Below, piece by piece: positions 32,504-56,132 of a DNA stretch of 64,000 nucleotides (position 1 is the stretch's first letter; each line of letters starts with the position of its first letter). The notes under the pieces were generated by a model that was not told the origin of the DNA, did not search any database, and worked only from the letters and a program-made list of their open reading frames with translations. Source of the DNA: Paramacrobiotus metropolitanus (lineage: Eukaryota > Tardigrada > Eutardigrada > Parachela > Macrobiotidae); the NCBI RefSeq assembly GCF_019649055.1, contig NW_026570380.1, forward strand, positions 124,001 to 188,000, given 5' to 3'. A program made the position numbers and the translations under genes.

Positions 32504-32515
32504 TGGTAGCAAGAG
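32504..32515 (+). promoter_or_regulatory. primer binding site, initiator tRNA-Met type
   Basis: TGGTAGCAAGAG abuts the 5' LTR. The first 8 bases match the complement of the initiator tRNA-Met 3' end, and the following AGAG fits with a one-base bulge. Element 1 has TGGTAGCAG in the same position. Confidence 0.65.
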
Positions 32516-33397
32516 ACGTGTTTCTCCAGGATAATCCCTGAAGTTTTCCCCGTCCAACTGACGGAGTGCTGAAGTGTGCGAGGAAGGGCTCGCTGACGAA
32601 GCAGTCGAAGGTGAAGGAAGGGCGCTTGGATCTCGACAGCAGATCAGCACCAGTGTGTCTCTACTGTGAAGAGCACGCTGTACTGTTCTGACGCGAGCAA
32701 GGCTACGGTAGTAGCTTTGTTCGGAGGGGCAGAAGCGCCGAGGAAGATAGCCAGAAGAGGCAGAAGCCCGAAGGGGGGCACGACTGGGCAAGCCACTTTT
32801 GGTCTGACGGGTGTGGAGTTCAGGTGCGTCTCTACTGTGTAGAGCGCACACATCATACGCGCTCACCCAAAAGGGTGGTCGAGCGCCCCTGTCGTTGCCA
32901 ACGTCAAGGCGCGACAGAAGACCCGCAGCCAGCAAGTCTTTTGGTCGACGCACCGCTGCGTCCCGTTGATACGAAACGAAAGGGGTTAACGATCTGACCC
33001 AGGAGAATGCAGTGTAATCGCTGGAGGATTTGGAGGATTCGCGGAAGGACGCGCAGGATCGATTTCTGGATCACGGAGACGATCAGGTCAGAATTTTGTT
33101 TATTAATTTCGCCATTGGCGCAGACGTAGAATTCTCAATTTCATTGGTCGGTGATGAGCTGAGCGAGAAAGTAGGCGGTACATTTTCGCACGGCGCGCTA
33201 GCAAAAATTCGCACGGCGCGCTAGCCACCTATCAAAAGGCTCTGAAAGAAACGCAGAATATTGAGAGCTCGAGCGATGAGAATGGCAACTCCGGACGTCA
33301 AAGCGGAGATAACAAGGGAGACCAGTTAAAGGTCACCGACGGGAGAACGGCAGCTGATGGACAGCTTCAAGCAGACCTGACGGTCGAGACCGGAGGA
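32516..33397 (+). other. leader of Gypsy element 2
   Basis: No supported ORF. GTCTCTACTGTGAAGAGC near 32657 and CTCTACTGTGTAGAG near 32827 are related short palindromic segments that could form hairpins in the genomic RNA. The AAAGGTCA array starts only at the end of this region (33328). Confidence 0.5.
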
Positions 33398-36300
33398 ATG
33401 TCACAGTCGGCCGAAAAGGTCAAGGAGGAAAACGCAGATCAGTCAAAGAAGGGCGAGAACGAAGTCAGTCAAAAGGTCACTGAACGGGGTGACGAGGTCA
33501 ACAGCAATCAGCTGTTAGACGCAGAAAAGGTCAAGCTGGATGACCTTTCGGATGACTTGATGACCTTTAAAGGGCTGGAAGGGAAGGGTACCAGCCCAGC
33601 ATCAAGTGATGAAAGATACTTTACGGACGATGAAGACAAGACAATGCAGATGTCATTTCACACTGCAATGAAAGAAGCTGAACAAGCGGACGAAATCCTG
33701 CAGATGACCTTTAACGAAAAGTCGGAAGAAACCTTCATAGGAACGGCGTCAGGAAAGGCTGACAACGAAAGGTCACCGACACCTAAAACTCCCGCATCAA
33801 CAGATTCGAAGCGACGAGTTCGAGAGTTAGAATTACAACTCGAGAACAAAGATGAGCAAGCATTCGCCGCAGTACGGGAGCAAAGGAACAAAACCATCGA
33901 AATGGAATCAAGAGTGTTCGTGTTAGAACAAGAAAAGGTCACGCTGGAAGATGAAATGCAGCAATGGAAAGTCAGATATGAAGTGCAGAAGCAAATGGCA
34001 GAAGAACTGAAGAAAATGGTTGACGATAAGGATTTGGAAGGCATACTCGCCGTGGAAGACCTCAACAACAGCCTGTCCGAAGAGTCAGCCGAAAGGTCAC
34101 GGGAGATAGCGGAATTGAAGGAACAGTGTGACCTTTTGAAGTCAAAGGTCATGGAAGTTGAAACGCAGCGCGATGAATGTCTGTCAAACGCAACAAAGGT
34201 CACGGGAAGGGTAGCCAGCCTGACAGCAGACATTACGGAGCTAATGAAAGATCTCGAAACATACGAAGAAAACAATCAAAAGCTACAGATGGAATTGAAT
34301 GAAAGGAAGAAGAAACAAGGGGAGACAGAAAAACAGAGGTACCAAGCCGCTCAAAAGCTCCAGGAACTCAGCGAGAAAACAAAAGCAGAAGTCAAGCGGT
34401 TAAGTGACGAAGTTCAAGGTCACAAAAGGGAAGCTCAGAGATGGAAGACTCACGCACAACTACTTGACGAACGGGTCACGGTGCTTGAAGTTGAGAACAG
34501 AGAAGGGCAAGTTCTCACCCATAAACAGAAGCAAGACATCGCTAAGCTGGGAAGTGACCTTTTAGGGATGACGACCTTGGTGATGTCCTGAGATGATGAA
34601 TTGGCTACGGTAAAAGAGCAGGTAACCTCAGCTGGAAGGCGGTATGAGAAGCTTGAAAAAGCGATGCAGAAGTTGAAGGGAGATAAAGAAGCATATGAGG
34701 AGGGCGAGAATGATCGAACTCTCTCGATTCATGGCGAGATGAAAAAGATCGAGCATCTTAAGGCAGAGAATGGCAGCCTTAAGAAAGAAAGAGATGACCT
34801 TTCAGGAAAGGTCAAGAAACTTGAAGATCAGAATAAAGCTCTTTCAATGTCATTGAAGCATAAAGACGAACAACTAAATAAATATGAACCGCAGAAGCAG
34901 GGAAGGTCACCAACACCTCCACCGAAGTACGGCGATGCTACCGAAATTCATACCCACGAATTCAGCGCAAACTTCCAGAAGCCCGAGAAGACAGGAATGG
35001 GGAACGGAAGAGGCACTGAACCTCCTAAAAAGGAATCCGAGAAAAGGTCAACCAAACGTACGAAGGGGTACCCGGGACCATTCTTCGGCGGATCATCACA
35101 ACAGACAGGGCCAACCTACAGCGATGATCCACGCCAATATGAAACAGATGGTAAACAAGGAGAAACCACCGTCCACAAGGATCCAGAAAACGTTGAGGAT
35201 CCGCACGAACGACAACCCGAACACGAAGGCTTCGCACAACACGGAGATCGACGAGAAAGGGACGAACGTGCGCAATTCCGAGCCGAACAAGAACGTTTAA
35301 GACGAGAACAATATGAGTTCCGTGGAATAGTGAAACAAATGGGAAGAAAGTCAAACTTGGTTGATTACAACGGCAACCGGGACAGTCTTCTCGGTTGGAT
35401 CCGTCAAGTCAAGGAAACGAAAAGGGCATTCCGGATGAGTGACGAAAAAGTCATACTCGAAGTCGCCAACGTGGTCAAGGGAGATGCAGAAGTTTGGTTC
35501 GACGGTGAACGAGAAATTCTCGGAGAAGAAAATGATGAGATGACGGTCGATGAATGGATGACAAAATTTAAGGAAGAGTTTGGCGATCGAGACGAAGGGG
35601 TCCTCGCCTTACGCGAAGCCATGGCTAGGAAGTTCAAAGTTGGTGAAGAGTCGCTGGATCAGTTCTATTAAGCGATGATCCGCTTCAAATCAAAGAAAAC
35701 TATTACGGAAAAACAGGCGATCGCTTTCTTAATTGACGGATGCAAGAGCGATAGTGACCTTTATAAAGCAATGAGAGCTCGAACATTCGAGACTCCAGCG
35801 GACATCAAAGAATTCTTCCACACATGGTCGGCGGGAGAAGACAAATATAAGGTGACGAGAGGGAATCGGAACCGAGACGACTACGTCGTTATTCGATCGG
35901 GTCAGGTGACAGAAGTCGCGAATGGGCGACAAAATCAACCCCCGCCACCGCAAGTACCAAGGTATGATGTCGAATTCCCGGCAATGAACAGCCAAGAAGT
36001 GACCTTTAGCAATGAACGGAACGAACGGAATGAAGGTCAAATATCGTACACGACGATCGCGGCGATACAAACAGCAGTACAAGAGGTCACCCGACCAACA
36101 ATCGCAGATGCGGTTCAAGCGGTCCAAGAAGTGACCAGGCCAACAATTGCGGCCATCCAAGCAGCAGCCCAGCAAGTGGCCAGACCAGCACAGAATGTGC
36201 AAGGAAATGCGCAAGGAAATGCCCTGAATGGAGGGTTCGCAGGTCAAGGAATGGCACAAGTAAATCCGGGCTACGTTGGCCAAGGATTTAACGGTGGTGG

Positions 36301-37178
36301 AAGAGGAAACTTTAGAGAAAACCGCGGACAGCAAGGGAACCAAGGTACCCGATATGCGTCGCGGATGGAAAGACTCTTCACCATGATAGATGGATAGGTG
36401 GCAAACAACGCGTTGACTTGCCGAAACTGCATGTACGGCAACCACCACACGCAAGGGTGCTCGTTCGCGGGAACACCGTGGAACCAGAATCCGAATAGGA
36501 TTGTGTATGAAGAATGGCTGCAGCTGCGCAACCAAGGTGGTTGGCGACAGGCCATGGCGAATGGATATGTCCCGCAAGCACGACAAGGCGGACAGTATGC
36601 TGGTCAAGGTGGCCAAGGAAATTTCAGAAGTCAAGGTGGCCAATGGAATAATGGAGGTCAAGGTGGCCAAGGGAACTTTGCCGGTCAAGGTGGCCACGGC
36701 AATTTCGGAAATCAAGGTGGTGGCCAGGGTAACTTCACCGGTCAAGGTGGCCAAGGCGGAGGATACGGACAGTATTGTCCGGCCAAAGGAGGCTTCAGAG
36801 GAAGGGGCAGAGGCTTCGGCCGCGGAGGCAACCGGGGTTACGGCTATGCCGGCCCGGGCCAAGGAGGCGGTAACGGTAATTACGGTGGTCAAGGTGGCCA
36901 GGGTAATTACGTCGGTCAAGGTGGCCAGAACAACTGGTCAAGGTGGCCAAGGAAACTTCGATGGTCAAGGTGGCCAGTGGAATGGCGGTGGTCAAGGTGG
37001 CTACCAGCAACAGCAGCAGGGAGGCTACGGCGGGCAGCAAAGCGGCCTTGCCGGTGGAGGCCAAAAAGGTTTTGGTCAGCAAGGCGGAGAATTTGACTTC
37101 GCCCCGGCGAATGGTGCCGGCCAGGCGCAAGGTGCGCCGCAGCAGGGCATGAACCAGGGAAACGTTCAAGGTCAGTAG
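33398..37178 (+). pseudogene. gag of Gypsy element 2 (coiled coil, capsid, Gly/Gln-rich tail)
   Basis: A single frame runs from 33398 to about 36930 but contains TGA at 34589, TAA at 35669 and TAG at 36395. A frameshift near 36930 continues it to 37178. The N-terminal part is acidic and then a long coiled coil (33800-34860). The capsid-like domain lies at about 35340-35800 (DSLLGWIRQVKE, MTVDEWMTKFKEEFGD). A Cys-containing CRNCMYGNHHTQGC follows near 36420, then a tail of GQGGQGN repeats that would bind RNA. Gag normally builds the particle and packages RNA. The stops are substitutions in otherwise open sequence; readthrough cannot be excluded but decay is simpler. Confidence 0.75.
36590..37010 (+). 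repeat. GGTCAAGGTGGCCAAGG repeat in gag tail
   Basis: About 14 imperfect units of 15-27 bp, each centred on GGTCAAGGTGGCC, coding GQGGQGN in one frame. The unit contains the half-site AAGGTGGCC, reminiscent of both the AAGGTCA of this element and the GGCCAA of element 1. Confidence 0.75.
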
Positions 37179-37402
37179 GCGCCGGTAAGCCTACTGATCG
37201 CCCGGAACCGAAACCACCGGACATAGGAGAGCAAGGTGCTCCGCCGCAGGGAAGGACCACGGCGCAAAAAGAAAACGGTGAAAGGTCACCAAAGATCCGG
37301 AAAAGAAATCCGAAGCTTCGAGGAAGTAACTCGAAAGCGAGCGAAGGGGCTCAGAAAGGTGATGGCAAGGCTATCAAAAGATTACCGCAAGGACGGAAGA
37401 AT

Positions 37403-37960
37403 TTGATCGAAAGGTCACCGCAGAAAGTGACTGCGGGAAGTCAAGAAAGTAACTTGACTCAACCGGGGCCGACCGAGGGGTCACCGCAGAAAGTAACTGC
37501 GGGGAAAAGGTTTGACGGAATATCCTCAACTCTGCATCCGGATCAGCAGAAAGAAACTGCAACGAAAGGTCACGAAAGTAACGAGACGCTGCAAGGACAG
37601 CAGACCCAAAGGTCATCGCAGGAAGTAACTGCAAGGAAAGGTCACGAAAGTAACGTGACGCTGCAGCAAGTGCAGCCGGGGCAGACCCAAAGGTCACCGC
37701 AGGAAGTAACTGCGCCGAAAGGTCACGAAAGTAACGTGGCGCTGCAAGGACAGCAGACCGAAAGGTCATCGCCTCAAGCAGAGAGCGAGACGACGAGGAG
37801 GAAGAATTACTTCGCAAAGACAGTAGCGAGGTTAAAAGCTGGAGATTCGGAAAACGAGAAGTTCATCGAAAAGAAGTTTGAAGAAGACGGAATAACCATG
37901 ATAGTGCAGCGCACACACATGAAGACGGTCCAGATTGACCGAAATTCTTCGAGCATATGA
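37403..37960 (+). CDS. Gag-Pol linker ORF with KGHESN repeats
   Basis: A 185-codon hydrophilic frame made mainly of four or five imperfect repeats of about 70-80 bp, each carrying KGHESNxTLQ and a following ERSPQEVTA-type segment. Each nucleotide unit contains two AAAGGTCA sites. No domain is recognised. It ends with an ATGA overlap into the next frame (ATG at 37957, TGA at 37958-37960), an arrangement used elsewhere for termination-reinitiation. It lies between gag and protease, where this element has about 2 kb of extra coding sequence. Confidence 0.5.
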   Translation: MIERSPQKVTAGSQESNLTQPGPTEGSPQKVTAGKRFDGISSTLHPDQQKETATKGHESNETLQGQQTQRSSQEVTARKGHESNVTLQQVQPGQTQRSPQEVTAPKGHESNVALQGQQTERSSPQAESETTRRKNYFAKTVARLKAGDSENEKFIEKKFEEDGITMIVQRTHMKTVQIDRNSSSI

Positions 37961-38694: not shown

Positions 38695-38871
38695 CGGATT
38701 ATCATCACAAGTCGATCCAACTCGACAAATAAGAAATTTCAAGAAATTCAGAGAGTGGATGAAAGAAAACGATCACAAGATGATCGTCTATGAAAGGTCA
38801 CCAGAAGAACTGGAAGACAAAGACGGTGAGATGACCCTCGCGGATCGTATCACGCAAGAGAATAATCGAAG

Positions 38872-39255
38872 TTGCGAGAAAAGCCGTCCAAAGACGTGCG
38901 GAATAAAAGGTCACAGTATGAAGTTATTAAAGAAGTGACGAAAGGTCACGAGAACGCACAAGCGAAGGGGCAGACGTGCGAAGCATCAAAGGTCACGAAT
39001 AACGCTGCGAAGGGGCAGGCGTGTGACTTACAACCCGAAAGACAAAATCAAGAATTTTACGATGCAAGAACTAACGTTCCAAAGAGATTTGATCGGTTGA
39101 GTTCAAGAGACATCAACCAAAACGCGCAAGCGAAGGGGCAAACGCGCGAGGTTCCAAAGGTCACGAACGATAATTACGCTGCGAAGGGGCAAGCGCGTGA
39201 CGTACCATCCGGAAAAAGAATCCGAGAATTCTACGATGTGCGACCGGATGTTTGA
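38872..39255 (+). CDS. short linker ORF with two 50-residue repeats
   Basis: A 127-codon frame containing two copies of a segment starting NAQAKGQT and ending REFYD or QEFYD. It is hydrophilic and has no known domain. It ends four bases into the protease frame, so the protease was probably reached by frameshift or reinitiation in an active copy. Confidence 0.45.
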   Translation: MREKPSKDVRNKRSQYEVIKEVTKGHENAQAKGQTCEASKVTNNAAKGQACDLQPERQNQEFYDARTNVPKRFDRLSSRDINQNAQAKGQTREVPKVTNDNYAAKGQARDVPSGKRIREFYDVRPDV

Positions 39256-39869: not shown

Positions 39870-39940
39870 GCACTGGGCAAAGAAAAGTCGAAAAGAATTG
39901 AAAGGTCACCAAAGTCAAAAGGAAATAAAGGTCACCAACG

Positions 39941-41521
39941 ATGGAACAAATTAAAATCATGCAAGCTGAAGCACTGATTGCTAAAAAAGACGCATTAGTC
40001 CCAGGACTGGAGTGGTCGAAGCTAATCCCAGTACCAGAGGCACCGGGCACGAAAAAGGTTGAGCCCAGAAAAGAGACGGGACTGATGAATGGTGACGAAA
40101 GAGCGCTATTCAACGAATTACGGGAGAAAGCTATAGAACAGTTGAAAAGTACACACTCCCGAAAAGATAAACCAGAGCGTAGTTCACAAGCTACTTTCGA
40201 ACCACGCCCTGCAGATAAAGAAATAGAAGTTATCGAATTGTCTTCAGACCACAGCGTGATTCCAATGGAATGTGATCGCGACTGGACGGATACAGAAGAT
40301 GAAGGTGACCTTTGCGTCCAACCGAAACCGACCGAATGGACAGCTGAAGAGAGAGCAACAGCATGCGACCATGATTGGCGCGATGACCTTTCGAAAGTAC
40401 AGCCGCAGGAGAAGTGCATCCAGTGCTTGCAAGAAGCAAGACAAGATGACCTTTCGGAATGGCCGAAATGCAACGCCGCAATTGAAAGTCTCAAGAGAGG
40501 CGACTGGATCAAAACAAATTCAATCATGAGGACGCTTCCAATGGAAGAGTTGCCAAAAGCAACTTACCTCTGGCAAAGATATAGAGAATAGTTGTCTGTA
40601 GTGAAAAATTACATTATCTCCAGAGGAAAATGGCTTCATCACTGGCAACAAGAAGTCGATAACTACATTCCCGGTCAAGCGGATAAAAGCGATCCAAATT
40701 ACATTGACCCAGTATCCAAGCTCGATCAGGAACGGCGACGAGCTATGGAAGAAAACGAATTATGGGAAGAAGATAGAATCGAATTATTCTGGCAATTCCG
40801 AACGAATTACCTAAGGAAAGGTCAAGGACGAGTTGTGATTTTCCCAATTGGACTCGGCACACCAGTGTACGAGCTGTTCGGCCTTTACCAGGAATGCCTG
40901 AAGAAAGGAAGTTTGAAACCATTCAATAAACAATGGACAAAAATTATGCAAGAAGTTCCGACGATCGTTGGCGAAGTGCCAGAACTAAAGGTCACAAGGA
41001 AAAGACGACCACCAGGACCATTCGGTTATCGTGGAAAGAAGAAGGTGACCTTTGCACCAGACCCAGATGGAGTCGAGTACCCCGAACGAGGCGGTGATAC
41101 ATGGTGCATGTATGAAACAAAACCAAGCGACGACTGGGTCACCGAAGAGTTGATGGCAAACTGCATCTTCTTCGGTGGCAAGAGACTGAAAAGTCACGGC
41201 ACAAGCGCTGTTCAAGAAAGCGGCACAAGCGCCGAAGAAGTGAAAGAGAAAGAAATCGGCACAGGCGCCGAAGAGGAAGGGAAAGAGCAAGAAAACGGCA
41301 CAAGCGCCGAAGAAGAACAAGACAAAGAAGAGCTCGGCATAAACGCCGTTCAAGAAGACGTTCAAGAAGATGACGACGGGGAAGGGTCACCGTCGGCATA
41401 CAAACTATCCCAGATGATTAAGGAACTGAACCAAGCGTTTCGGGATCAAGATGCAGGAATCCCAGTAACCGAAGCAAAAAGGTTCAAATGTCGCCAAACG
41501 AGAAGAAAGCAGCAGCGCTAG
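39941..41521 (+). CDS. Pol spacer region with IPVPEAPG and WEEDRIELFWQFR motifs
   Basis: Two collinear frames (39941-40591 and 40592-41521) are separated only by a TAG at 40589. The first contains IPVPEAPGTKK and one hairpin-repeat copy (ERSSQATFEPRPAD). The second has NELWEEDRIELFWQFRTNY, which aligns with SLWEDERLALWWEYREYH in element 1, so this region is conserved between the two elements and is probably a real domain of this lineage. A tandem GTSAEE repeat lies at 41200-41370. No enzyme motif is seen. The frame then shifts to the one starting at 41488. Confidence 0.55.
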
Positions 41522-42372
41522 TGGCGTCACTCAAAAGGTCACTCGATGATGGTGAGGAACGGCCACCAGTCGAGAACGTAAGGTCACTCAAAGAGCTGCC
41601 GGAGGATAAAGAGCCAGAAAGGTCAGTTCCTAAATTCGATGAAAGGTCAGACCAGGCAGACCGTGGCTCTCACAATACTTTCGAACCACGATCTGCTACC
41701 ACACACGAAAAGAAGGAAAGGTCACGAGCAGGAATCAGCGCAACGCGAGCTCATCCGAGGATAATAGCACGAAACGGACGAAAGTCCAAGGAAACGGGCA
41801 AACCTCTGCCCGAGAAATCGAAAACGAAAAGACTTAGCGCTTCCAAGGGAGCAAACGAAAGAGCATGAAGGCGTGTTGGAGCAAACGAAAGAGGATCAAG
41901 CAAAGGTCAAATGCTGCAAGAGAACGGTAGCAGCTAATCCGACTCGGACTGGTCGAGTACGAGTGGCGATTCAACCACTTCAGAAGATTTAGGAGTGGAT
42001 GACCTTTCAGAACGAGAAGACTTAATGGATCTCGACGAAGACGATGATAAAGACGACGAAAAAGAAAAAGAAATCGTCGTCAGAAGAATAAAAGTGCAGA
42101 GAGCAAGAATCCCTCAAGGGGCAATCAAGGTCTATAGCGATCAAAGAATCAAGATCAGACCGAATGTCTGCACACGCGTTAAAACTAAGATGGCGGAATA
42201 CGCCCCAAGGACTCAAAAACTGATGTTCACGGCGACTCTACAGAAGGATGTAGATGTTCAGCCGTATACGGGAGTGACGGATCATAAAGGGAATCGGTTT
42301 GGAATCGTCGTCGCTAACCGAAGTAAAAAAAGAATGGGAATTAGGAAGGGCCAATTCCTTGGTTACGTTGAA
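41488..42372 (+). pseudogene. Pol segment before reverse transcriptase
   Basis: The frame opens MSPNEKKAAALV and contains a hairpin-repeat copy (DRGSHNTFEPRSAT). It has TGA at 41866 and TAA at 41935, then an acidic stretch and a beta-rich domain ending RMGIRKGQFLGYVES. That domain corresponds to QILRKGVDMGRVEPY in element 1 and to the module found between protease and reverse transcriptase in many Gypsy elements. A one-base shift near 42372 moves into the reverse transcriptase frame. Confidence 0.6.
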
Positions 42373-42929
42373 TCTTGGAGAAGAACCTTACGAACACATG
42401 GAGAACGTAAAGGTCAACGCGGCAGTAATCGCCGACGTACTTAATGATCCGAATGTCGACGCAAAAACGAAAGAAGAATTGAACGACATCATTGAAAGAC
42501 TCAGGTTAGGACCAGACCTAACTGAAGAACAAAAGAACGATGTACGAAATGCATTCTGGGAGTTCTGGAGAGTCTTACCCACGTCAAAGAAACCGTACGG
42601 CGATGTCAAAGGGGTAACGCGCACTATTGACACAGCCGATGCAAGGCCAGTGAAATGCAACCCAGCAAGAACTAGCTGGAAAGGTCGTGAATTTATCACG
42701 AAGCACATCGAAGAGATGCTGCAGCAAGATGTCATTGAACCGTCCGATGCGGACTGGAGTTTCCCGGTCGTACTGGCCGCAAAGAAAAATGGTGATGGCA
42801 CCATGGGAACAAGGTTCTGTGTCAACTACATTCAACTCAACAAGCTGACGAAGAAGAATAACTATCCACTGCCGAATCCAGATGAACTGCTCGACGCATG
42901 CGCAGGAAACAAGTATTACGGCAAGGTCG
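42299..42929 (+). pseudogene. reverse transcriptase, N-terminal part
   Basis: This frame gives TSKKPYGDVKGV, ARTSWKGREFITKHIEEML, SFPVVLAAKKNGDGTMGTRF and YPLPNPDELLDACAGNKYYG, the fingers and early palm of a Ty3/Gypsy reverse transcriptase. It runs into an 8-bp insertion (42930-42937) exactly where the first catalytic Asp motif should be, and the frame is lost there. The enzyme from this copy is therefore predicted to be inactive. Confidence 0.8.
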
Positions 42930-42937
42930 TGGAGAAT

Positions 42938-45900: not shown

Positions 45901-46038
45901 GAGAAAGGTCAAGTGGCAGAAAAGCCGAAAAAGGCACAAGCGCCGAAAGAGGCTGAAGATCCGAAAAAGAAAAAGAGAGGACGACCAAAGAAAGAAGTCA
46001 AGGATTTCGAAACGGCGGTCACTGTAAAGTTGAACTAA
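42938..46038 (+). CDS. Pol: reverse transcriptase (palm onward), RNase H, integrase, AT-hook tail
   Basis: An open frame of more than 1,030 codons. It has GFWQIPMDPAS-type sequence, RMPFGVCNGP and the catalytic YIDDV (near 43130). RNase H follows with VIECDASKEGLGAVLSQ (43568) and VRTDHQALTNLL. Integrase has an HHCC finger (HALHDEKAAGHLGF ... CQGCQF) and DDE residues in YADLKGPL (44886), HTDRGRHF (45064) and GQVERQ (45178). After GDRVLIRLP a long Lys-rich tail includes KKKRGRPKKE, an AT-hook expected to bind the DNA minor groove. Hairpin-repeat copies lie at 44131-44171 and 45850-45886. It ends in TAA, after which the frame stays open. Confidence 0.9.
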
Positions 46039-46059
46039 GAAGCGGGAAACCTCGCCGCC

Positions 46060-46548
46060 GTGGAAGAGAATGAAAGGTCACGGCCTGATGAAACTCTCGC
46101 AGAGCGTGATTCTCAAATTACTTTCGAACCACGCCCTGCTACCAAGGCTTCATTCCACGCAGACCGTGGCCCTCAAAATACTTTCGAACCACGCTCGGCT
46201 ACCGAAAAAGATGACCTTTCAAGAGTTGAGCAAATCAAAGCGGTCAAGGAAAGGGCAGACCGACTTGGCCACGATATCGCCAAAGCGATCGCAGACCGAA
46301 AGGTCAAGAAACCTAAAAAGAATCCGAAGCCAACCCCGGAACAAATTCTGAGGGGCGAAGTTGACGCGGAAGATGAATCCGACAAAGGATTACTTGATCG
46401 GATAACTAAAGGACGGAAAAACATAAACCCAAAAATCAGACTCATAGGAGTTTACGATATTATGACGGGAGATTGGGATGGCATAAAGGTCATCAGGAAT
46501 AAACCTGCTAATCGGAGTTATTTTCGTTCTCGTAGTAGGTTTCACTAA
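46060..46548 (+). CDS. post-integrase extension with two hairpin-repeat copies
   Basis: This frame is collinear with the Pol frame and separated from it only by the TAA at 46036. It contains ERDSQITFEPRPATK and DRGPQNTFEPRSATE, encoded by hairpin copies at 46099-46139 and 46159-46199, then a basic helical region (KKPKKNPKPTPEQIL) and GVYDIMTGDWDGIKV. No known domain. In an intact copy it might be the end of Pol. The start codon at 46060 is not ATG. Confidence 0.5.
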   Translation: MEENERSRPDETLAERDSQITFEPRPATKASFHADRGPQNTFEPRSATEKDDLSRVEQIKAVKERADRLGHDIAKAIADRKVKKPKKNPKPTPEQILRGEVDAEDESDKGLLDRITKGRKNINPKIRLIGVYDIMTGDWDGIKVIRNKPANRSYFRSRSRFH

Positions 46549-46562
46549 CGATAGATCGAAAG

Positions 46563-47735
46563 ATGGAAGGACAGGATCCCAACACGTCATATTGGAATCC
46601 GGGCACGCCGTCATCGACGAGCGGAACGATACAAGACCCGGAAATGTACGATGACTACATGAACACTGAAGGCGGATATGGCTACGACGGGGGATACGAC
46701 CCGAATTACGCGTATCAACAATCGGACACCGGATTGGGATCGAATACATGGGGGACTTACGGCTCACAAGTCGGGCCCCAAGGGCAAATGATGCCGAACC
46801 AGATGATGCCTAATCAGATGATGCCTAATCAGATGATGCCGAATCAAGGGATGATGGGTCAAAACTTCCCATTCCAGCAACTCCCTCAGAATATGTACGG
46901 TCAGAATATGCCGATGATGAACCAAGGTCAACCGATGCAAGGTCAGTTCGGATATGGAGGAATGGCCCCATTTCCGAACCAGATGCAAGGTCAAGGGCAG
47001 TTTCGGACGCCAAATGCGGGGGGAATGACACCGCAGGCTCCAAGAAGGGGAAGAGGAGATTCAGGTGGAGTTTTCACACCTCGAGGTCAAAGAAACCCGT
47101 GGAACAGGCAAAACACACCGCGGATGGACGGTCAGCCGTTCACCCCTCAGGCATCGACGAGTGGCCACAGACCAAGAATGGAAATCCCGTCATTGACACC
47201 AGTCAGAATCCAGTCGCCACATTCAATTGGAAGCATCCCGTGGGCGGTGATCAACGCGCCGAGGTTTCAAGATCCAGTGACGGAAACGGCCCCGCAATAC
47301 AATATTATCGTTGACCCAAAGGTCATTCTGACGGAAGAAGAAAAACGGTCCATCGCGGAATTCAACGCGAAATGCCGCGAATTTGTCGAGACCCATAACG
47401 AAATCAACGAAAATCAATTCCAGTACAGGACTGCAAGGAAGAGTCACAAGCTTGACAGAGGAGTACACCTGGAACTGAAGCTTACTAAACCTAAAGCGGA
47501 AGAACTGAGGAAAGAGTTGGGAGTAGAAATCAAAACACTGAAATCCGTCACGCCAGTACTGAAAGACAAGGAATGGCCAAGCGCAGTCGAAACGATACTG
47601 ACTTTCCTAAATCTAATTCCGGGAAAACATCAAGAAGAAGAAGAAAGAGGAGTCAGAACTCCGGCAGAAAAAAGTCCCACCGCTGAAGAGCGAAAGGTCA
47701 AGAAAACGAAGAACGAGCCTTTCGAAATGTCCTAG
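46563..47735 (+). CDS. accessory ORF A: low-complexity MMPNQ protein
   Basis: A 390-codon frame with an ATG 15 bp after the previous stop. The first 220 residues are rich in Gly, Gln, Asn, Met and Pro, with four tandem MMPNQ units and GQNMP strings, a composition like phase-separating or prion-like RNA-binding proteins. The C-terminal 120 residues are charged and helical (LTEEEKRSIAEFNAKCREFV ... LELKLTKPKAEELRKELG). No catalytic motif, signal peptide or membrane segment. It is the first of the extra ORFs after integrase and has no counterpart in element 1, which is truncated earlier. I do not recognise a family. Confidence 0.6.
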   Translation: MEGQDPNTSYWNPGTPSSTSGTIQDPEMYDDYMNTEGGYGYDGGYDPNYAYQQSDTGLGSNTWGTYGSQVGPQGQMMPNQMMPNQMMPNQMMPNQGMMGQNFPFQQLPQNMYGQNMPMMNQGQPMQGQFGYGGMAPFPNQMQGQGQFRTPNAGGMTPQAPRRGRGDSGGVFTPRGQRNPWNRQNTPRMDGQPFTPQASTSGHRPRMEIPSLTPVRIQSPHSIGSIPWAVINAPRFQDPVTETAPQYNIIVDPKVILTEEEKRSIAEFNAKCREFVETHNEINENQFQYRTARKSHKLDRGVHLELKLTKPKAEELRKELGVEIKTLKSVTPVLKDKEWPSAVETILTFLNLIPGKHQEEEERGVRTPAEKSPTAEERKVKKTKNEPFEMS

Positions 47736-47742
47736 TGACCCA

Positions 47743-49383
47743 TTGACAGCAAGAGAAAGGGAGCTGTTGAGAGAAAGAGCTAAACTCGACAGAGAGTTAA
47801 TGAAAATAAGGTCACGAGCGACTTCGACGGTTCAATCGGGATCGTCCCGCGCAAGTCCAGTTAGAGAACGTCAACCGAAGCAGAAAGGTCATGCGACGGT
47901 GGGGGAAGGTCACACTGGTCAGCAAGTTCAGACGAAAGGTCATCCTGGTGGAAGCACGCGAAGGGGCGTAGCTCGAGTCTCAAAATGCAGATCATACACC
48001 AGAGTCTTCCGCGTAAAGAACAAATTTGAAGAAGTGGTCAGTGCCTTTTTGGTCCAGAGAGACACGAATGAGCCGATTCCATCCTTGGCAGAAGGAAACC
48101 AGCAAGAAGGATTCGCTGAAATGTGCAAAAAGGCAAATGAACAAGTGGAAGAGAAAATTGCAGAGTTATTTCCTTCAGAAAGGAACAACCCAAATACGAT
48201 CGGAAGGATCCTCATGGAACTGCTGAGAGAAACCGCGTTCTACGAAAAAGCGAACATACTGGTGACGATTGACTTTGACGGAAAGGTTGAGAAACAACTC
48301 TACGGCCCTTATGGAACAAAGATCGACATGAAGTCGCGTAGTGCATATCCTGCATCAGATGCGAAGGGGCACGATGCAGACGAAGAGGAAAACGCCTCAG
48401 ACGATGAAGGTCAAGAAGAGAGTCAAGCTCAACCTTTCAGGGAAACAATCTGCAGGACTCTGAAAGTGAGGTATCATTTGGCAAATGGAGACGAAGGATA
48501 CTTCTATGGATATATCGTCGACCCAGTCACAATGATGCCGATTCCGACTGCAGGGACGAATGCCTCGCCTGAAGAAATCGAATGGCAGACGCAGAAAGCG
48601 TACACGGATCTGCAAAAGATGCTCAGTCTCATACCAGAAGAACAAAGGAACGATGTGGCTGAGAACGTCAGATGCGTATTAAGCATCCTGCGACAAAGAG
48701 CTGAAGAAGACGAAGCCAACATTTTGGTGCTGATGAAAGATGATCAAGGGAAATTTAAATCGTTATTTACCTCGAAAGGTCAAGGACTTAACTTCCCGCA
48801 GCAGTATCAGGTTCATCCGGCGGAGGAAGGTCACGCCGTGCTGTACAATCAGCCTCCAGCAGAAGCCATGGACGAAGAAGAAGCACAAGAGCGAGAATCG
48901 CCTTGCAGAAGGCTGGATTATAAATTCATGACAGAAGATGGAAGAGAAGGGATACTGAAGATCGAACTGGTAGATCCGGCCACTGGAAAGATGATGCCGA
49001 ATGAAGGTCTCACGCAAGAACAAGAAGATCATGAAACGGCGGAACTTCTTCAGGAAATCGAGGAGGTACTGCAAACTCTCCCGGACGAAGAAGCAAGAGA
49101 CGAATTTGAAACCTTGACGGAAATCTTGGTCAACGTAATGATGCCAAGAGCAAGACGGGATCAGGCATATATGCGCTTGACTCATGTTGATCCGACCCAT
49201 GGAGAGGTGTATAAACAGCTCTACACCGCGAACGGCGAAGCGTTCAGTAACCTGGCATCGGCGAAAAAGACTAGGAAAACCGCAGAGAAGGGTGAGCGGG
49301 AAATTGGCAAAAGTAGAACCGAAAGGTCACGCCATAAAGAACGAGGTGACAGAAGAAGCGAAAGGTCAGCAGGTGAAAACTGA
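47743..49383 (+). CDS. accessory ORF B: three tandem copies of an unknown domain
   Basis: A 546-codon frame. A basic N-terminus is followed by three related domains of about 115 residues at roughly 81-195, 235-348 and 387-501. Each starts with a Cys-Arg pair and a beta segment (KCRSYTRVFRV, ICRTLKVRYHL, PCRRLDYKFM). Each continues through a DP- or PIP-containing turn and a helical stretch with PEE or PDEE, and ends in a strand such as ANILVTIDFDG or AYMRLTHVDP followed by a LYxxxG-like segment. A basic RS-rich tail follows. I know no family with this signature. The frame starts at a non-ATG codon and is open upstream into ORF A, so expression by frameshift is possible. Confidence 0.6.
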   Translation: MTARERELLRERAKLDRELMKIRSRATSTVQSGSSRASPVRERQPKQKGHATVGEGHTGQQVQTKGHPGGSTRRGVARVSKCRSYTRVFRVKNKFEEVVSAFLVQRDTNEPIPSLAEGNQQEGFAEMCKKANEQVEEKIAELFPSERNNPNTIGRILMELLRETAFYEKANILVTIDFDGKVEKQLYGPYGTKIDMKSRSAYPASDAKGHDADEEENASDDEGQEESQAQPFRETICRTLKVRYHLANGDEGYFYGYIVDPVTMMPIPTAGTNASPEEIEWQTQKAYTDLQKMLSLIPEEQRNDVAENVRCVLSILRQRAEEDEANILVLMKDDQGKFKSLFTSKGQGLNFPQQYQVHPAEEGHAVLYNQPPAEAMDEEEAQERESPCRRLDYKFMTEDGREGILKIELVDPATGKMMPNEGLTQEQEDHETAELLQEIEEVLQTLPDEEARDEFETLTEILVNVMMPRARRDQAYMRLTHVDPTHGEVYKQLYTANGEAFSNLASAKKTRKTAEKGEREIGKSRTERSRHKERGDRRSERSAGEN

Positions 49384-51088
49384 AGAAGTACCGAAAGGTC
49401 ATCAAGTCAAAACTGAAACGCAAGAAGAAGTGAAAGGTCACGAATCGAAAGAGTTGACTCCTCGACGTAGTGCTGAAAGAGTGAGGCAGATCCTGGAAGG
49501 TGAAGTAGCACCGCATTCATGTGACGAACCGGGATGCGAACGATGCCGTGAAGAGGAAGATGTCTGGGAAAAGGAAGAAGAAGAATCAGAGAAGAAAAAG
49601 AAACCAGTTAGAACTCCTAAGACTACGGCACGAAAAGGTGGAGCCGGTATGACCTTTGGTAAACAATCGAAGCTTCTGGGAGTTATGGCATCGAAAAGGC
49701 CAAAACCCGATTCGGACTCAGAAACTGAGAAGATGGTCATTGACGCACAGCCGGGTTCATCACAGCAAGATACCGAAGATGAAAAGGAGAAAGGCCGATC
49801 GCGTAATGTGATGGAAGAAGCGATGATGATGCAGCCAATATACGCGTCAACGATGAAAGAACGAAAGGAAAAGAGTGAGAAAGAGAAGAAGAAAAGGGAT
49901 ACTTCCTTCGAATCAGCCAAATCCGAGGCAAGCGCAGTGTCAGCACCGTTTCCGAAGCCGAAGAAAGAGACGCAAAAGAAAGGTCAACAGAAGGTCACGC
50001 CAAAAGCAGATCCCAGCTTGGCCGAATATATGGACGCGCAAAAGAAACCAAAGGTCACGAAGAGGAACAGCCTTATCGGAAGGGTCGATCCGGCTGACAT
50101 TGTTGATTGGCAACCGCCGGGAGGAGAGAGCGATCTGGATTACTCAGACGACGAAAGCTTCTTCCTCGAGGACGATCACGAGAATTTAACGATCGCAGAA
50201 GTTGACAAGATAGTGCTGGGCGCTACTGCCGAATGGGGCAAAACGAAACAATCCGTCACGTCAATGTTCAGGGGTGACCTTAGATCATATTGCAACGAAA
50301 ATGAGATACGATTCACAAAGAAGAAGTACGACGTCACCCTGGAATACGCAAGAAGCACGGGGAAGATCCTGCAGAAGCATCCGGGATATGGAGTTAAAGC
50401 GAAGTTGTTCATCATGGGGAACAACAACGAGAGAAAGCTAGCCACAGCCAACGCGGACATTAGAGAACGAATTGACCGGGCTATTACCGGGATGTGCAGC
50501 CCAATTGGTACTACGAAGCACCGAATGGCTCAGTTCATCAACGGCGTCTGGAGCAAAGAGAAGGGAAATGCTTCAGAAATTGAAAGGTCACTGGAGGCAC
50601 CATTGACGCAGATGGTCAAAGAAGGGATACTCCATACCACGAATCCCCATAAAGGGGTGCCCATCAGATACAGCTCAGTAAACGCTGTCATGGAAGAATT
50701 GCGGAAGTATCCAAAAGAAGAAACGAGCGAAGACATGACCGTCATTGTGGATCCGAGGATTCATGCGGCAAGTCCCATCCTGAGCCAAATTCAGCTTATG
50801 ATCGGGCAGAAGCCAACCTCGTCGAAGAAAGAAGAAGTGACAATCGAAGACGTTGTTGTCGAAGTAGTTGACGAAGATGAATCAAAGTCAAACGCTCCAA
50901 AGTCCGCGGCAGAAGCCATAGCAATGGTGGGACCGAAAACGTCCAAGAGGCACTTGCTCTCGTGCGAAGCAAAAAGGTCATCGAAGGAGGTAGTGCGGAA
51001 AAGTTACTGCCAACAGCACGAGACGTTCAGATCGTTCACAAAACGACATCAGCCTTGGTGCCGCTCAAAACTGCACACGAAAGATTAG
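49384..51088 (+). CDS. accessory ORF C: Lys/Glu-rich protein with a winged-helix-like segment
   Basis: The frame is open from 49184, but the first 200 bp overlap ORF B, so the independent part begins near 49384. It opens with KGHQVKTE-type repeats, then a CDEPGCERC cluster, long Lys/Glu tracts and an acidic patch (SDLDYSDDESFFLEDD). A folded-looking region of about 200 residues follows, where KHRMAQFINGVW and ERSLEAPLTQMVKEGILH precede a beta hairpin, a helix-helix-wing order that suggests DNA binding. This is inference from pattern, not a database match. The frame then loses register near 50960, where ORF D begins. Confidence 0.5.
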
Positions 51089-51825
51089 TGCAAAGCCTAA
51101 AAGATCAACGCGCTGCAGAAACGACTAAAGGTCACCAAACTTTAGTGGGAAGTCCAGCCGGGGCGGAAGGTCACCCGAGCTCGAGTCAAGAAAAGGCGCC
51201 AGCTGCGTCAAGTTCAATCGCAGCGGACCCGGCAAAGCTAATGCCACCTCCTCAGACGGAAGGAAAAGAACCGCCGTTTGAACTCTTGGAAGAAGAAATG
51301 ATCGGGGACAAACCGGCGTATATGACGGGCGAAGAATTGAACGAAAATAACGTCCCATGGATGACGACTTACGCCGCGATCGGCGCAGCCCCAACAAGAG
51401 AATTGGATAAAGCAGACATAACGAGAGCTGTCAGTGATGCGGGAATTACCAGAACCCAAGTTAACAAGATTATGAAAAGGGCATATAAAGAAGGAAAGAT
51501 CGGTGTGCGCTTAACGAACAACTACGCACCGATTTATTACATCCCCCTAGCTGAAGAGCAAAGGAAGCAAAGAGTGAAGCCAAATGGCCAGGCATGGAAA
51601 GACGTCCTGGTTAACGATGCCTTGCAAAACATTGGAGGAACAAACGGGGTCACTATTGAAGATATTGCCAACTATATGGCCGTTCAATACGATTCGGGCC
51701 TGGAAAACATGAGAGGCGATCGGATCAGGATCCAGAATGCACGGGATAGTCTTGTCAAGGAAAGAGTGATCAGAGTCGAGAAGAGAAACGGAATCGACCG
51801 TTTTGACTTGATCGCAAAAGCTTAA
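50962..51825 (+). CDS. accessory ORF D: double winged-helix-like protein
   Basis: A 287-codon frame, open upstream of its non-ATG first codon and probably the continuation of ORF C after a frameshift. The C-terminal half holds two helix-turn-helix-plus-wing patterns. The first is DITRAVSDAGITRTQVNKIM then a strand pair with IGVRLTNNYAPIYYI. The second is VLVNDALQNIGGTNGVTIED then a helix and VIRVEKRNGIDRFDLI. Such domains usually bind DNA. The first half is low-complexity. If real, this would be an element-encoded DNA-binding protein in an element studded with a short DNA motif. Confidence 0.5.
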   Translation: MRSKKVIEGGSAEKLLPTARDVQIVHKTTSALVPLKTAHERLVQSLKDQRAAETTKGHQTLVGSPAGAEGHPSSSQEKAPAASSSIAADPAKLMPPPQTEGKEPPFELLEEEMIGDKPAYMTGEELNENNVPWMTTYAAIGAAPTRELDKADITRAVSDAGITRTQVNKIMKRAYKEGKIGVRLTNNYAPIYYIPLAEEQRKQRVKPNGQAWKDVLVNDALQNIGGTNGVTIEDIANYMAVQYDSGLENMRGDRIRIQNARDSLVKERVIRVEKRNGIDRFDLIAKA

Positions 51826-52157
51826 AGAGAAAGTGAAGTGTGGGAGGAAGGTCCACCACACGAGAAATAGCAGTCAGAAGAAAAAGAAAACATGCAGAGC
51901 GTAATTCTCCGTTACTTTCGAACCACACTCTGCAAGAAGAGTCGAATTAGCGAAGGGGCTAATTTACTTAGCGAATGGGCTAAGATGGGAAAGGTCACCC
52001 ATAGCATTGAGAAAGGTCATCAGACAAGCAGCGAGAAAGTCTCAGCTCAGCACCAGAATAGCCTAGTTACTATAGGCGTAATATAGGCGTTGAGAAGGGT
52101 TACTCAGTAAAGGTCATAGGACTTACAGTGTTTGAGATTGCAGATTGAACAAAGGAA

Positions 52158-52949
52158 ATGGCCGAACGGAGCCAACCCAGCCAAACGGCGAAGAAGGGAC
52201 AAAGACCTCCGTTGAAAAAGGTGACGGGGGATCCCGCGACGAATTTCAATGAAACCTGCCCAGATTGCAAGCGCAACAACATCTTGGCAAATGAACGATA
52301 TCCTTGCTGGGAATGTGTGTGCGCTGTGCCGAACCAGACGTCCGTCGTGCCCGAAGAAGCTAAGCGGGGCAATCTCGATGTTTTCCGACATTTGGTCATG
52401 GGAGACACTTGGAAAAAACTCTCACCGGAAAATCGGATGATACTCGAAGACAAATACCGCATGTGGGTCGGACGTCGACCAGGTTGGGACATAACCCTTG
52501 AACCTCCGAAAGATGCAGAAGCCGATGAGTTCAGAAAGAAGTTTGAAGAAGATACTCAGAGAATGGTTCAAGAAAAGCGCGAGCAAGATAGAAAGCGTTT
52601 GAAAGAGAAGCAGAAAGCTGCGGCAGAGAAGGGTTTAGCCGATGCAGCTAAAGGTCACGGTGGACTTGGAATACCAGTCCCGCTCGCGATACTAAAGAGA
52701 CCTGAGGAAGAAGAGGCGTCGGTGATCAGACAAGCGCTGATACAGCAGATTGATGTCATCTTGCAAGATCCGCTTGCTGTAACGAAAGACGAATATTCGA
52801 TCTTCCTGACGGAAAAGGTCAACTTATCAAAAGGAGGCAGACCATCTCAGGTCATCAAGATCGCTGTCGAGGAACGCATCGACAAAATGCGCAAATTCCG
52901 AAAGCAAGAAAAGGACGTTATCCAGGCGTTTCAGAATTTCAAGAGATGA
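52158..52949 (+). CDS. accessory ORF E: zinc-ribbon-like protein
   Basis: A 263-codon frame with its own ATG. Residues 34-55 contain CPDC and CWEC separated by 12 residues, a four-Cys arrangement typical of a zinc ribbon. A conserved-looking WKKLSPENRMILEDKYRMW segment follows, then a strongly charged coiled coil (about 130-165) and a helical C-terminus. It ends in an ATGA overlap with the next frame (ATG 52946, TGA 52947-52949), the second such overlap in this element. A role in nucleic-acid or protein binding is likely but not shown. Confidence 0.55.
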   Translation: MAERSQPSQTAKKGQRPPLKKVTGDPATNFNETCPDCKRNNILANERYPCWECVCAVPNQTSVVPEEAKRGNLDVFRHLVMGDTWKKLSPENRMILEDKYRMWVGRRPGWDITLEPPKDAEADEFRKKFEEDTQRMVQEKREQDRKRLKEKQKAAAEKGLADAAKGHGGLGIPVPLAILKRPEEEEASVIRQALIQQIDVILQDPLAVTKDEYSIFLTEKVNLSKGGRPSQVIKIAVEERIDKMRKFRKQEKDVIQAFQNFKR

Positions 52950-54519
52950 GTTTAAACGCCCAAAATCACCTCCAAGAGATGCCAGAAATCGTGGATATGA
53001 AAGGTCATCCGACCGTCCCCGAGAGGAAAGGTCACGAGAAAGGTCGCGAGAAAGGTCACGGGTCTTTGACCGTCACGGCAGATATGACGGCTACGCGAAA
53101 GATACGCGTACATCAGAGCAGAAGAGAAGGGATGAAGAGCGCATTCGACGCGAAAGAGAGCAAAGAGAAAAGCGTCGCCGAGAAGAAGCCGAGGACAAGC
53201 GGTTGGCGGAAGAAAACAGGAAAATCAATGAAACCTGTAATCGGCAGCAAGAACAGGCCGCGAAAGATGCGCAAAGTAGTGAAACGAACCAGAGCAGAGA
53301 AGGGCGAAGCGAAGGCTCGGGCAAATCAACTTCTTCAAAGGGCCCGTATGACGAGGAATGGAGGCGAGATACACTGCATTCCGGTGAATGGGAATTTGGA
53401 GACAGCAGATACAACAGTAAAAGGTCATCCAGTTCCGAAAGTCATCGTACGCCAAAGAGTCCGCGGATGAAGTCGATAGTCCACTCTGTTTGTTCAACAT
53501 TCAAGTCAGCTGAGAAACCAAGAGATTCAGCAAAGCAGCCAGACGAGCAAATGGAGTGCAGCCCATCATCCTCGAATGTCATCGAAGTTCATGCGGATGA
53601 GGATATGCCACTTTCAAGACGGAACATCATTTTCGATATTGACCGTCAGTTGACGAGCGCAGAAACGGCGAGTAATGCACCGCCAGAGTCAGAAGCTGAG
53701 AAAGGTCATCCGAAAGGTCAAGTCCAGACTCGGATCCCGCAAAGACGTTCTCTCCGTACTATCAAGTTGGTATTCGAAATGAACGATATTGCGAAACAGA
53801 CCAAAGAGATCTGTCGTTCAGTGGGCATTGAGCCAGAAGATAAAGAAGAGACCGACAAGGTATACTGGCTCCTCATGAACTTACGCCAAGTAATGGTGGA
53901 TTGCGGATACGCGAAGCAATACGAATACGGTCAATGGGAAGACTTGATCATCACGCAAGAGTCGGCAAATTTGAATTATTTCCCGACGAGAGAAAGCGGA
54001 CTTGTCAGTCTGATCGACCTTAGTCTTTTGGAAACTGCGCTGGATAGGCCTGATCCAACAGGAATGACGCAGTTCTGCTACAGAGATATCAAGGAGAGAC
54101 GGCTCCATGTAGCGCAGTTCGTGTTACGACATGTGAATCCGGCGCTGCGACTCCTCGCAGGAAGGGCTGCTTTAGGATTGTCAGTTCAACCGGATTCCTC
54201 GCCGGACCACAAGGTCACGATCCAAAAGATTTTCGCAACGAGATTGTGTCATTACGAGACGCATCATCAGTTACGGAAAAGTGCTCAAAGAGGAACGGAA
54301 ATTCCGCCGGCATTAACCGCGCAGGTCATCAAATTGGGAATGCCCATCGCAAACTTCAACTCCTCTGAGACGGTGAAAAGGCAGCTTAAGGATTGCCAAA
54401 AAGCGATGGCTAAAGATGAACAACTTAAACGCCAGGCACAGCTGCATGCTCATCGGTGCGCAGAACGGATAAGACGCAATGGGGACGAAGTTCATCCAAC
54501 CGTCAGATTTCGTCTATGA
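52946..54519 (+). CDS. accessory ORF F: RS-rich protein with helical C-terminal domain
   Basis: Two frames overlap. The one starting at the ATG 52946 runs only to 53470. The frame ending at 54519 is open from before 52946 and looks more natural: REERSRERSRERSRVFDRH, then a long Arg/Glu coiled coil (RREREQREKRRREEAEDKR), then a folded-looking C-terminal region of about 270 residues (IKLVFEMNDIAKQTKEICRS ... LHVAQFVLRHVNPALRLL). The Arg-Ser part resembles SR-type RNA-binding or splicing proteins and is directly encoded by consecutive AAAGGTCACG units. No family is recognised for the C-terminal region. The true start is unclear. Confidence 0.5.
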
Positions 54520-54892
54520 CTTTATTCAAGAGATCAGCAAAAATAAGAGCAGTTACCGTCCTGAACTTGAGAAGCGACCCCAGAACAACGACATGGGTAA
54601 ACGCGGACGGCGGAATCAACAGTTACATATGGATTATGTTGACCTTTGTCAAAGGCTGGCCAACAATCCACATGATGAGAAGTTGAAAGAGTTAACGATT
54701 GACCTTCGGGAACACTTGATACACATTCAGCGTTGGCGTAATCGCAACCGAAATAGCAGCGCTAGCAGCCGGAGCGAAGGAGACCAGCTGCAAGAGAGGG
54801 AAAGGGAACCTCGAGATCGAACGTCGGATCAAAACGAAAAAGAGCGACGACGTTTCGATCGGAACCGCGATAATGGTTCAAGTGATCAGTGA
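54479..54892 (+). CDS. accessory ORF G: small basic protein
   Basis: A 137-codon frame starting at an ATG 41 bp before the end of ORF F. It is helical in the middle (LKELTIDLREHLIHIQ) and ends in an Arg/Asn/Ser/Asp-rich tail (RNRNSSASSRSEGDQ, RRRFDRNRDNG), suggesting nucleic-acid contact. No domain is recognised. It is the last coding frame before about 1.2 kb of non-coding sequence that leads to the 3' LTR. Confidence 0.45.
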   Translation: MGTKFIQPSDFVYDFIQEISKNKSSYRPELEKRPQNNDMGKRGRRNQQLHMDYVDLCQRLANNPHDEKLKELTIDLREHLIHIQRWRNRNRNSSASSRSEGDQLQEREREPRDRTSDQNEKERRRFDRNRDNGSSDQ

Positions 54893-56132
54893 TGACCTTA
54901 AGGGCATCACTGATGTGCTAGTTACGGCCATCAGTCGGCAGCACAGAGAATTGTACTTAAGGTAATGTATCAGGGGGGAAGGACGCAACTTATTAAACTG
55001 TCATATCGTTCGTGTCTTGTTGTTTGCAGAATTTTGTTCCAGAGGATCAATGCGATCTTACACTTGGGGAGTCACGGTGGTCAACCGGCCCTCAAAAGAA
55101 GAAGTTTACGGCGACAACCGGCCTTCTTCATTTCAACTTAACGTCACTTAAGGGTGTAGTTGAGGCCTGCTGAGTCGGCACACTCTGGCGGAATGACAGG
55201 AGCCACAAGGGTGAAAAAGAGAAAGAGTTCAAGAAAAATAGAAGAAATTGTCAGATAACGGGGTTACGGCGACAAAATATGTCGGCCTCAAGAGAGGAGT
55301 TACGGCAGTAAACCGGCCATCTGACCTGGTAAGGAAGGAGAAGAAAAAGTGCGCGTCATTGGAAGAAGGTTACGGCGTCACACTGGCCATCTTCTGCACT
55401 AAAAGAAAAAAATGTGCGACCAAAGAAATGAAGAAAATCGAATGATGACCTTTACAAGGGAGGCAAGCAAAAACGCTTGAAAGCCAGAAACATCGGCTAA
55501 GTTCCTCCATGACCTTTAATACGAATTTCATTATGGAAGAAGGATGACCTTTTGGGATTGTCACTGCCCAAACGCGTCGCACATCAGAAGAGAATGGATG
55601 ACCTTTGAGAACTTCATTACTCAAGAGAGTCATCGAGAAAAAGAGAATGTCCTTACCAGGGAGGAAGCAATCAAGCTTGTCTTCAAGACGTCCTTGCATG
55701 ACCTTTACGGAATTTCAGTATTACGAAAGACGTACGTTTGATACGCACTCAATCCAAAGATGAAGAATCAGTATTCGGAAAGTCGTACGACCGATACGCA
55801 CCTTGTTCCTAAAAGCGGATCTCAATTGTGATGATAAAGATTGCTCACAGAGCGGAATGGGCCAAAAGCGGATTACGGTTGACAGGACCCAGTGACCTTT
55901 ACGAGTCGGAGGATCCTAGTCTTCCTTGATTAAGAATTCTGTTGATATTTTTTACTGTTTACTTATGTTTACGAGAACTCTTTATTCACATGTGAGATGG
56001 AATTTTGTGATGTTAAAAGGAGAATGAATCTCGATGTTTTTTTTAAATCACACAGACGAGCCGTCTAGGATTCCCAAGGAATTGGAAGTGGAGTCTAGCC
56101 TCGAACGGAGCTCGGCATCCCTCCCAGAGGCA
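54893..56132 (+). other. non-coding 3' region of Gypsy element 2
   Basis: No ORF is supported. It contains the five GTTACGGC repeats and at least six inverted or direct TGACCTTT sites (55441-55900). I see no clean polypurine tract directly before the 3' LTR; GGAATTGGAAGTGGAG at about 56078 is the nearest purine-rich run. Confidence 0.55.
55071..55388 (+). repeat. GTTACGGC...CCGGCC repeat, five copies
   Basis: Copies at 55071-55090, 55104-55122, 55263-55287, 55299-55318 and 55369-55388 fit the consensus GTTACGGCGNCAAMCCGGCC, with a longer spacer in the third. All are in the same orientation, in the non-coding stretch between the last ORF and the 3' LTR. Confidence 0.8.

Follow-up and report, generated by a model that had tools for sequence, protein, structure and literature searches.

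Why would a retrotransposon carry more than a hundred copies of a single seven-letter word, AAGGTCA, spread through its coding and noncoding DNA alike? This question is raised by a 64,000-nucleotide stretch of the genome of the tardigrade Paramacrobiotus metropolitanus (contig NW_026570380.1, positions 124,001 to 188,000; here called the window, to which plain coordinates refer). It includes, at 32181–56453, a 24-kb Ty3/gypsy long terminal repeat (LTR) retrotransposon that is one of a large family in this host. An initial annotation, made from the letters alone, had described about 125 to 130 copies of the word in both orientations, mostly as AAAGGTCA, and their near absence outside the element and in its LTRs. 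Our counts bear this out. Between 33328 and 55900 there are 129 sites (101 on the plus and 28 on the minus strand), 106 of which are AAAGGTCA (82 plus, 24 minus), whereas the rest of the window holds 10 copies of AAGGTCA and 5 of AAAGGTCA, and the LTRs hold none. The answer that we tentatively prefer, at somewhat less than even confidence, is that the array is read by a sequence-specific DNA-binding protein, with a host NR4A-type nuclear receptor somewhat favored over a protein encoded by the element itself.

Enrichment and strictness of the word

The open coding pieces of the element hold 100 of the 129 sites. Codon-preserving shuffling, proposed with the annotation as a check, fails to reproduce this number: 1000 synonymous shuffles of the 19,248 coding bases gave 15.7 ± 3.6 sites and never more than 29. 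When 8-mers were ranked against 150 further synonymous shuffles, AAAGGTCA was the most extreme outlier (81 vs. 7.5, z of 26 on a score of our own). Such shuffles understate the effect, because amino acids stay fixed while the proteins themselves were shaped. The annotation's figure of about three copies expected by chance stands for random strings drawn from non-site codons (2.9 sense plus 0.5 antisense in the coding part), but not for order-2 Markov copies of the whole element, which contain a mean of 11 and a maximum of 24 AAGGTCA words (n = 200).

The core of the word is strict. Its sole variable position is the first A of AAAGGTCA (23 cases), and most site flanks carry little information. 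One-mismatch forms, defined over the last seven positions of AAAGGTCA, occur at 0.93 per kb inside the element and 0.76 per kb outside it; because they are about equally rare in both, the array is unlike a set of decaying repeats. Tandem repeats were also considered as its source, and the searches run confined them to parts within 36600–37001, 37546–37772, and 38953–39238.

The word recurs about every 180 to 350 letters across most of the length of the elements. No dimer spacing dominates among the 98 neighboring pairs no more than 60 bp apart, as judged by eye and without a statistic in five stretches, and the commonest direct pairs, whose sites are separated by 23 and 32 bp, account for 7 and 8 of the 98. 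This arrangement is monomeric and lacks fixed spacing, as expected of the NR4A response element (NBRE). Nucleosome or helical phasing was rejected: the mean gap is 176 bp, but nothing stands out around a period of 10.5 and the scatter is random-like (coefficient of variation 1.09). Near 165 bp the resultant, taken without a control, is 0.215.

Coding phases and strand use

All six coding phases had been thought to be used, and the correct number is five. The 100 coding sites fall 23/34/25 into the sense phases and 0/6/12 into the antisense phases, the third antisense phase being empty because it would place the stop codon TGA in frame. The antisense share in coding DNA (18 of 100) agrees with the 14.7 expected from codon capacity (p = 0.32). 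Since the strand ratio follows codon capacity, double-stranded DNA is the likely target, as the annotation had also favored.

The proteins bear the marks of this word. Over the expectation from amino-acid composition, the three sense-phase readings are in excess by factors of 24 (KGH, 17 vs. 0.7), 9 (KVT, 16 vs. 1.7), and 6 (ERS, 16 vs. 2.8), and the antisense reading DLS occurs 8 times against 1.2 expected. Site density falls to 1.1 per kb in the reverse transcriptase core (42278–43180), and a Gly/Gln-rich stretch (36395–37096) has no site. Because five phases are used and the strand bias equals codon capacity, the sites act as orientation-free words of double-stranded DNA that are allowed wherever the protein tolerates them. 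The annotation's claim of sites in the noncoding tail holds for their presence, with nine at 54520–56132, beyond the last long open reading frame (ORF); none of these is sense and all are antisense (p = 0.004 if independent).

Conservation and turnover among related copies

A search of the genome (169.8 Mb in 533 contigs) with a 314-amino-acid (aa) late ORF pointed to 127 places, with 126 of 190 candidates scored. We examined 30 loci around this ORF (L009–L038), which represent 26 distinct places including that of the window; the copies compared were therefore picked by the presence of the winged-helix ORF described below. The commonest 7-mer was AAGGTCA or AAAGGTC in 30 of 30 loci. Across the 25 other places, with one locus each after four overlapping ones were dropped, AAGGTCA occurs 354 times in 90.3 kb, at densities of 2.9 to 4.9 per kb, whereas the reversed word is present 12 times. 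The motif is the same in five loci whose late ORF is only 30% to 33% identical to that of the window.

Of the 29 other loci, 18 were aligned with the window, and loci within a subfamily are not independent. Two at 88% nucleotide identity have 16 of 19 sites in common with the window, where the conservation of other 7-mers predicts 8.3. Eleven at 60% to 78% identity share 7–12 of 16–19 sites (1.3–6.2 expected), and five at 48% to 50% share 1–3 of 17–19 in a rough alignment (0.2–0.3 expected). The last five nevertheless have 11–16 sites of their own in about 3.6 kb, a similar density. Positions thus turn over while density is kept, which suggests turnover under selection on DNA, and since positions change while density persists, sites would have been gained repeatedly.

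Selection on the nucleic acid rather than the protein, as first proposed, is also supported by synonymous positions: contrary to the second refuting condition given with the annotation, site codons in a related copy are conserved beyond what their amino acids require. In a copy on contig C414 (20 kb read, 85 sites), codons of sites that encode the same amino acid as in the window are identical in 71 of 82 cases, where the behavior of these codons outside sites predicts 46.8 (binomial p = 8e-9); amino-acid identity is 0.77 in sites and 0.76 elsewhere. Identical site codons number 86 of 89 in the closest loci (66.7 expected) and 101 of 131 in loci at 55% to 65% protein identity (68.8 expected), neither group consisting of independent loci, and 3 of 8 in a fourth group (0.6 expected). 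In the five most distant loci, amino-acid conservation is 0.17 for site codons and 0.38 for other codons; there, the sites occupy fast-changing parts.

Architecture of the element and its relatives

From left to right, the array element consists of a gag-like frame, pol, and about 8 kb of additional ORFs between direct LTRs of 321 bp (32181–32501 and 56133–56453) that are 99.07% identical, which identifies it as an LTR retrotransposon. A target-site duplication was not identified when the ends were checked by eye. The leader (32502–33327) is the first 826 bp past the 5′ LTR. The gag-like frame (33158–37957, plus strand, as are all ORFs that follow) has a coiled coil with weak Pfam matches and then the Gly/Gln-rich stretch. 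Pol (42886–46035) comprises reverse transcriptase, RNase H, and integrase, with the reverse transcriptase starting upstream in another frame (42278–43180). The Pfam families RVT_1, RT_RNaseH, Integrase_H2C2, and rve match in this order at 42898–46038, which is the Ty3/gypsy order. The nearest database pol proteins are from P. metropolitanus itself, the top match being 77% identical. Because the gag-like frame holds in-frame stops of all three kinds, the window copy is broken, yet its LTRs mark it as young.

Two accessory ORFs (46539–47732 and 47617–49380) gave nothing above Pfam cut-offs, and BLASTP found none of the internal repeats that were suspected by eye in the second. The next ORF (49181–51085) had no homologues among 7994 candidate proteins scored. 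It is followed by the ORF with tandem winged helices (50881–51822), an ORF with a CxxC...CxxC stretch (52149–52946) that was recognized by eye in a distant copy too, and an ORF whose N-terminal part appears Arg-rich by eye (52810–54516).

The distant copy (L089 and L090, C1:840500–870500) has LTRs of 364 bp that are 100% identical, and is probably a recent insertion for that reason. Its LTRs and first ~900 bp are site-free; the leader then holds 11 antisense and no sense sites and, on the strand of the element, no ORF that reaches 100 aa, and its tail has one sense and five antisense sites.

A related gypsy fragment in the window, element 1 (21607–27818, plus strand), ends inside pol and has no site in 21607–27302. 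Its reverse transcriptase is 65% identical to that of the array element over 278 aa, and its clade is present at no fewer than 150 genomic places, where open frames reach as much as 3543 aa. A 93% inverted repeat has one arm immediately after this fragment (28009–28234), and its other arm directly follows the array element's 3′ LTR (56512–56736).

Candidate readers of the array

The annotation had named a host nuclear receptor or one of the element's own DNA-binding proteins as possible readers, and candidates of both classes exist, either of which may read the sites. Its identification of AAAGGTCA as the NR4A (NBRE) site agrees with PMC4777543, and 106 of the 129 sites are identical to this element. 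A piece of the DNA-binding domain of a host NR4A gene was found in the genome. ERR and NR5 receptors were rejected as readers: C before AAGGTCA, their preferred flank, occurs in only 8 of 129 sites. The host ERR and NR5 genes are at loci L047, L050, L045, and L058, an assignment made by eye on the basis of their DNA-binding domains.

Among the proteins of the element, that of ORF 50881–51822 has tandem winged helices, the second of which is nearest to the linker-histone globular fold. In the three members for which bit scores are given, similarity to the linker-histone family PF00538 lies below its curated cut-off of 22.4 bits (14.5 bits for the window member, 22.2 for L010, 15.0 for L035), and L033, P0121, and P0122 have no match at E 0.1; the best E value among 14 members of the ORF is 1.2e-6. 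An alignment search with 7998 candidates scored returned two database relatives, both from P. metropolitanus. A profile of the ORF (A1) matched no PDB sequence at E 1, and its hhalign comparison with an H5 domain gave a probability of 16 and aligned that domain to the first one of the ORF. A single-sequence fold had a pLDDT (predicted local distance difference test) of 42.

Weighing the explanations

In the explanation that we prefer, selection on the DNA sequence itself keeps the array in place, as is shown by the enrichment, the conservation of synonymous positions, the turnover of sites at constant density, and the strand use in coding DNA. The members of the array would be monomeric sites, spread through the internal region, for a protein that binds specific sequences in double-stranded DNA, most likely the host NR4A-type receptor. 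The array probably governs how the integrated element as a whole is packaged in chromatin or expressed, for example by holding its 24 kb of coding DNA open in those cells that have an active receptor. A classical promoter function seems less fitting, because the sites shun the LTRs and leader and fill the coding and tail DNA. Furthermore, because the sites lie in the body, lack a dominant spacing, and are kept at constant density, we infer a cumulative effect along the element, which might open its chromatin, help it to escape silencing, or serve the recognition of self.

Several observations weigh against this explanation. No site lies in the LTRs or in the 826 bp after the 5′ LTR, although this is where a transcription factor should bind, and for one LTR plus leader (1147 bp) such an absence has a Poisson p of 0.002. 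Coding sites have G at the −2 flank in 61 of 127 cases in the element, and this is not an NR4A preference verifiable here. At loci of 55% to 65% protein identity, ACC in sites was kept in 0 of 7 cases, compared to 37 of 57 outside sites. Also, the array is absent from four element-1 loci read around the reverse transcriptase (14.4 kb including that of the window), whereas the matching stretch of the array element (41100–44700) has 17 sites in 3.6 kb. Because these related loci hold no site, base composition is not the source, and the array appears to be a property of one clade rather than of the genome. Finally, the elements encode a winged-helix protein of their own that might be the reader.

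This last possibility, which we consider a serious though less probable one, is that the tandem winged-helix, linker-histone-like protein (50881–51822) or the CxxC protein (52149–52946) covers the DNA of its own element and labels it as self against host chromatin, in the manner of the VANC proteins of VANDAL transposons. The motif stays constant, however, although the winged-helix protein drops to about 30% identity, whereas VANC proteins and their motifs diverge jointly; and the motif is a known host receptor site. The joint occurrence of ORF and array says little, because the 26 places were chosen for carrying the ORF and the window's element-1 fragment breaks off inside pol. Linker-histone domains are not known to recognize a sequence of this kind. 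A related proposal, likewise less probable than not, is that the H1-like protein, alone or with the host NR4A receptor, reads AAAGGTCA in the body and replaces or opens chromatin on the element only, the need for such an address having shaped proteins in five phases.

The remaining explanations fare much worse. It is improbable that the sites act in RNA, with sense AAAGGUCA and antisense UGACCUUU either binding an RNA-binding protein or pairing to fold the 24-kb transcript. The block-wise orientation outside long ORFs would suit this (sense/antisense 0/9 in the window tail, 0/11 in the leader of the distant copy, and 1/5 in its tail), but the units there may be partly tandem, so that a common orientation may reflect descent, and within ORFs codon capacity alone gives the strand ratio, unlike a single-strand signal. 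Even less credible is a host repressor whose sites the elements are unable to lose. One host protein could serve all subfamilies, but an attacked element should shed its sites, whereas turnover at kept density implies renewed gain, and the element-1 clade thrives here without sites in the part read. Least likely of all is a by-product of tandem duplication or of peptide-level selection for KGH, KVT, and ERS. Those peptides are in excess and some sites do lie inside tandem repeats (37546–37772), yet three unrelated sense peptides and antisense DLS all encode one DNA word, sites also fill parts of tails and leaders in which long ORFs are missing, most flanks carry little information, and the conservation of synonymous positions already contradicts it.

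The word elsewhere in the genome

Genome-wide, with element copies included, there are 42,562 occurrences of AAAGGTCA and 15,522 of the reversed word, and pairs with a gap of no more than 30 bp number 2652 against 56. Much of this excess must come from the element family. For TATAAAGGTCAC the count is 289, compared with 49 for its reversed control, and some of the places listed lie inside element copies. At L042 (C1:277200–277900), a gene start as read by eye, three TATAAAGGTCAC (TATAAAGGTCACC-like) sites precede an ATG, and the frame that starts there resembles a signal peptide. Another locus, L041 (C1:564900–568200), is presumed by eye to be an inverted-repeat element; its ends carry short repeats holding AAAGGTCATCCACCTTT, the same word as the array in apparently unrelated sequence.

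Farther along the window, a single-frame gene (61598–63544) combines an N-terminal domain like UDP-L-rhamnose synthase 7jid (residues 1–284) with a C-terminal dTDP-glucose 4,6-dehydratase domain (residues about 313–632). In plant RHM enzymes the two domains come in the opposite order.

Comparison with known systems

The nearest known design appears to be that of the Arabidopsis VANDAL transposons and their VANC proteins, in which, according to PMC5735166, the motifs are found chiefly in noncoding DNA and coevolve with the protein. Both cases have a dense array of one short motif along a transposon family, and the effect of the array presumably reaches the entire element by way of a bound protein. 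The present sites differ in being mostly coding (100 of 129), in five phases, in an animal Ty3/gypsy element, and with a motif that is constant across the subfamilies read. Given its course through coding sequence and its constant motif, we do not class the array as VANC-type, though it may work alike.

The array shares its exact word, AAAGGTCA, with the NBRE as given in PMC4777543, and Nr5a2 sites in the short interspersed nuclear element (SINE) B1, described in PMC11102866, likewise place nuclear-receptor sites in a mobile element. Unlike either precedent, 129 sites here run through 24 kb including ORFs, with none in an LTR; also, the Nr5a2 motif is TCAAGG(C/T)CA, not AAAGGTCA. The second winged helix of the element resembles the globular domain of linker histones H1 and H5, but it stands in tandem with another winged helix, is carried by a retrotransposon, and, in the members for which bit scores are given, falls under the curated Pfam cut-off.

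Among open-licence PMC literature, the searches found nothing on P. metropolitanus together with retrotransposons and nothing that joins linker histones, LTR retrotransposons, and winged helices; a single paper came up for retrotransposons together with nuclear receptors and AAAGGTCA. Listings for giant tardigrade retrotransposons included none judged relevant. In the portions of main text available, a P. metropolitanus transcriptome paper (PMC11191345) has no word beginning with "transpos" and a tardigrade C4 zinc-finger paper (PMC12941274) does not contain "NR4A".

Implications

This family offers a clear case in which selection for a short DNA word overrides protein sequence, in several coding phases and over 20 kb of a mobile element. 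Dozens of related arrays provide natural material for the study of site turnover, and the system could reveal how giant retrotransposons remain expressed in an animal genome. If the H1-like protein of the element does turn out to be the reader, the family would represent a chromatin system by which an LTR retrotransposon marks itself.

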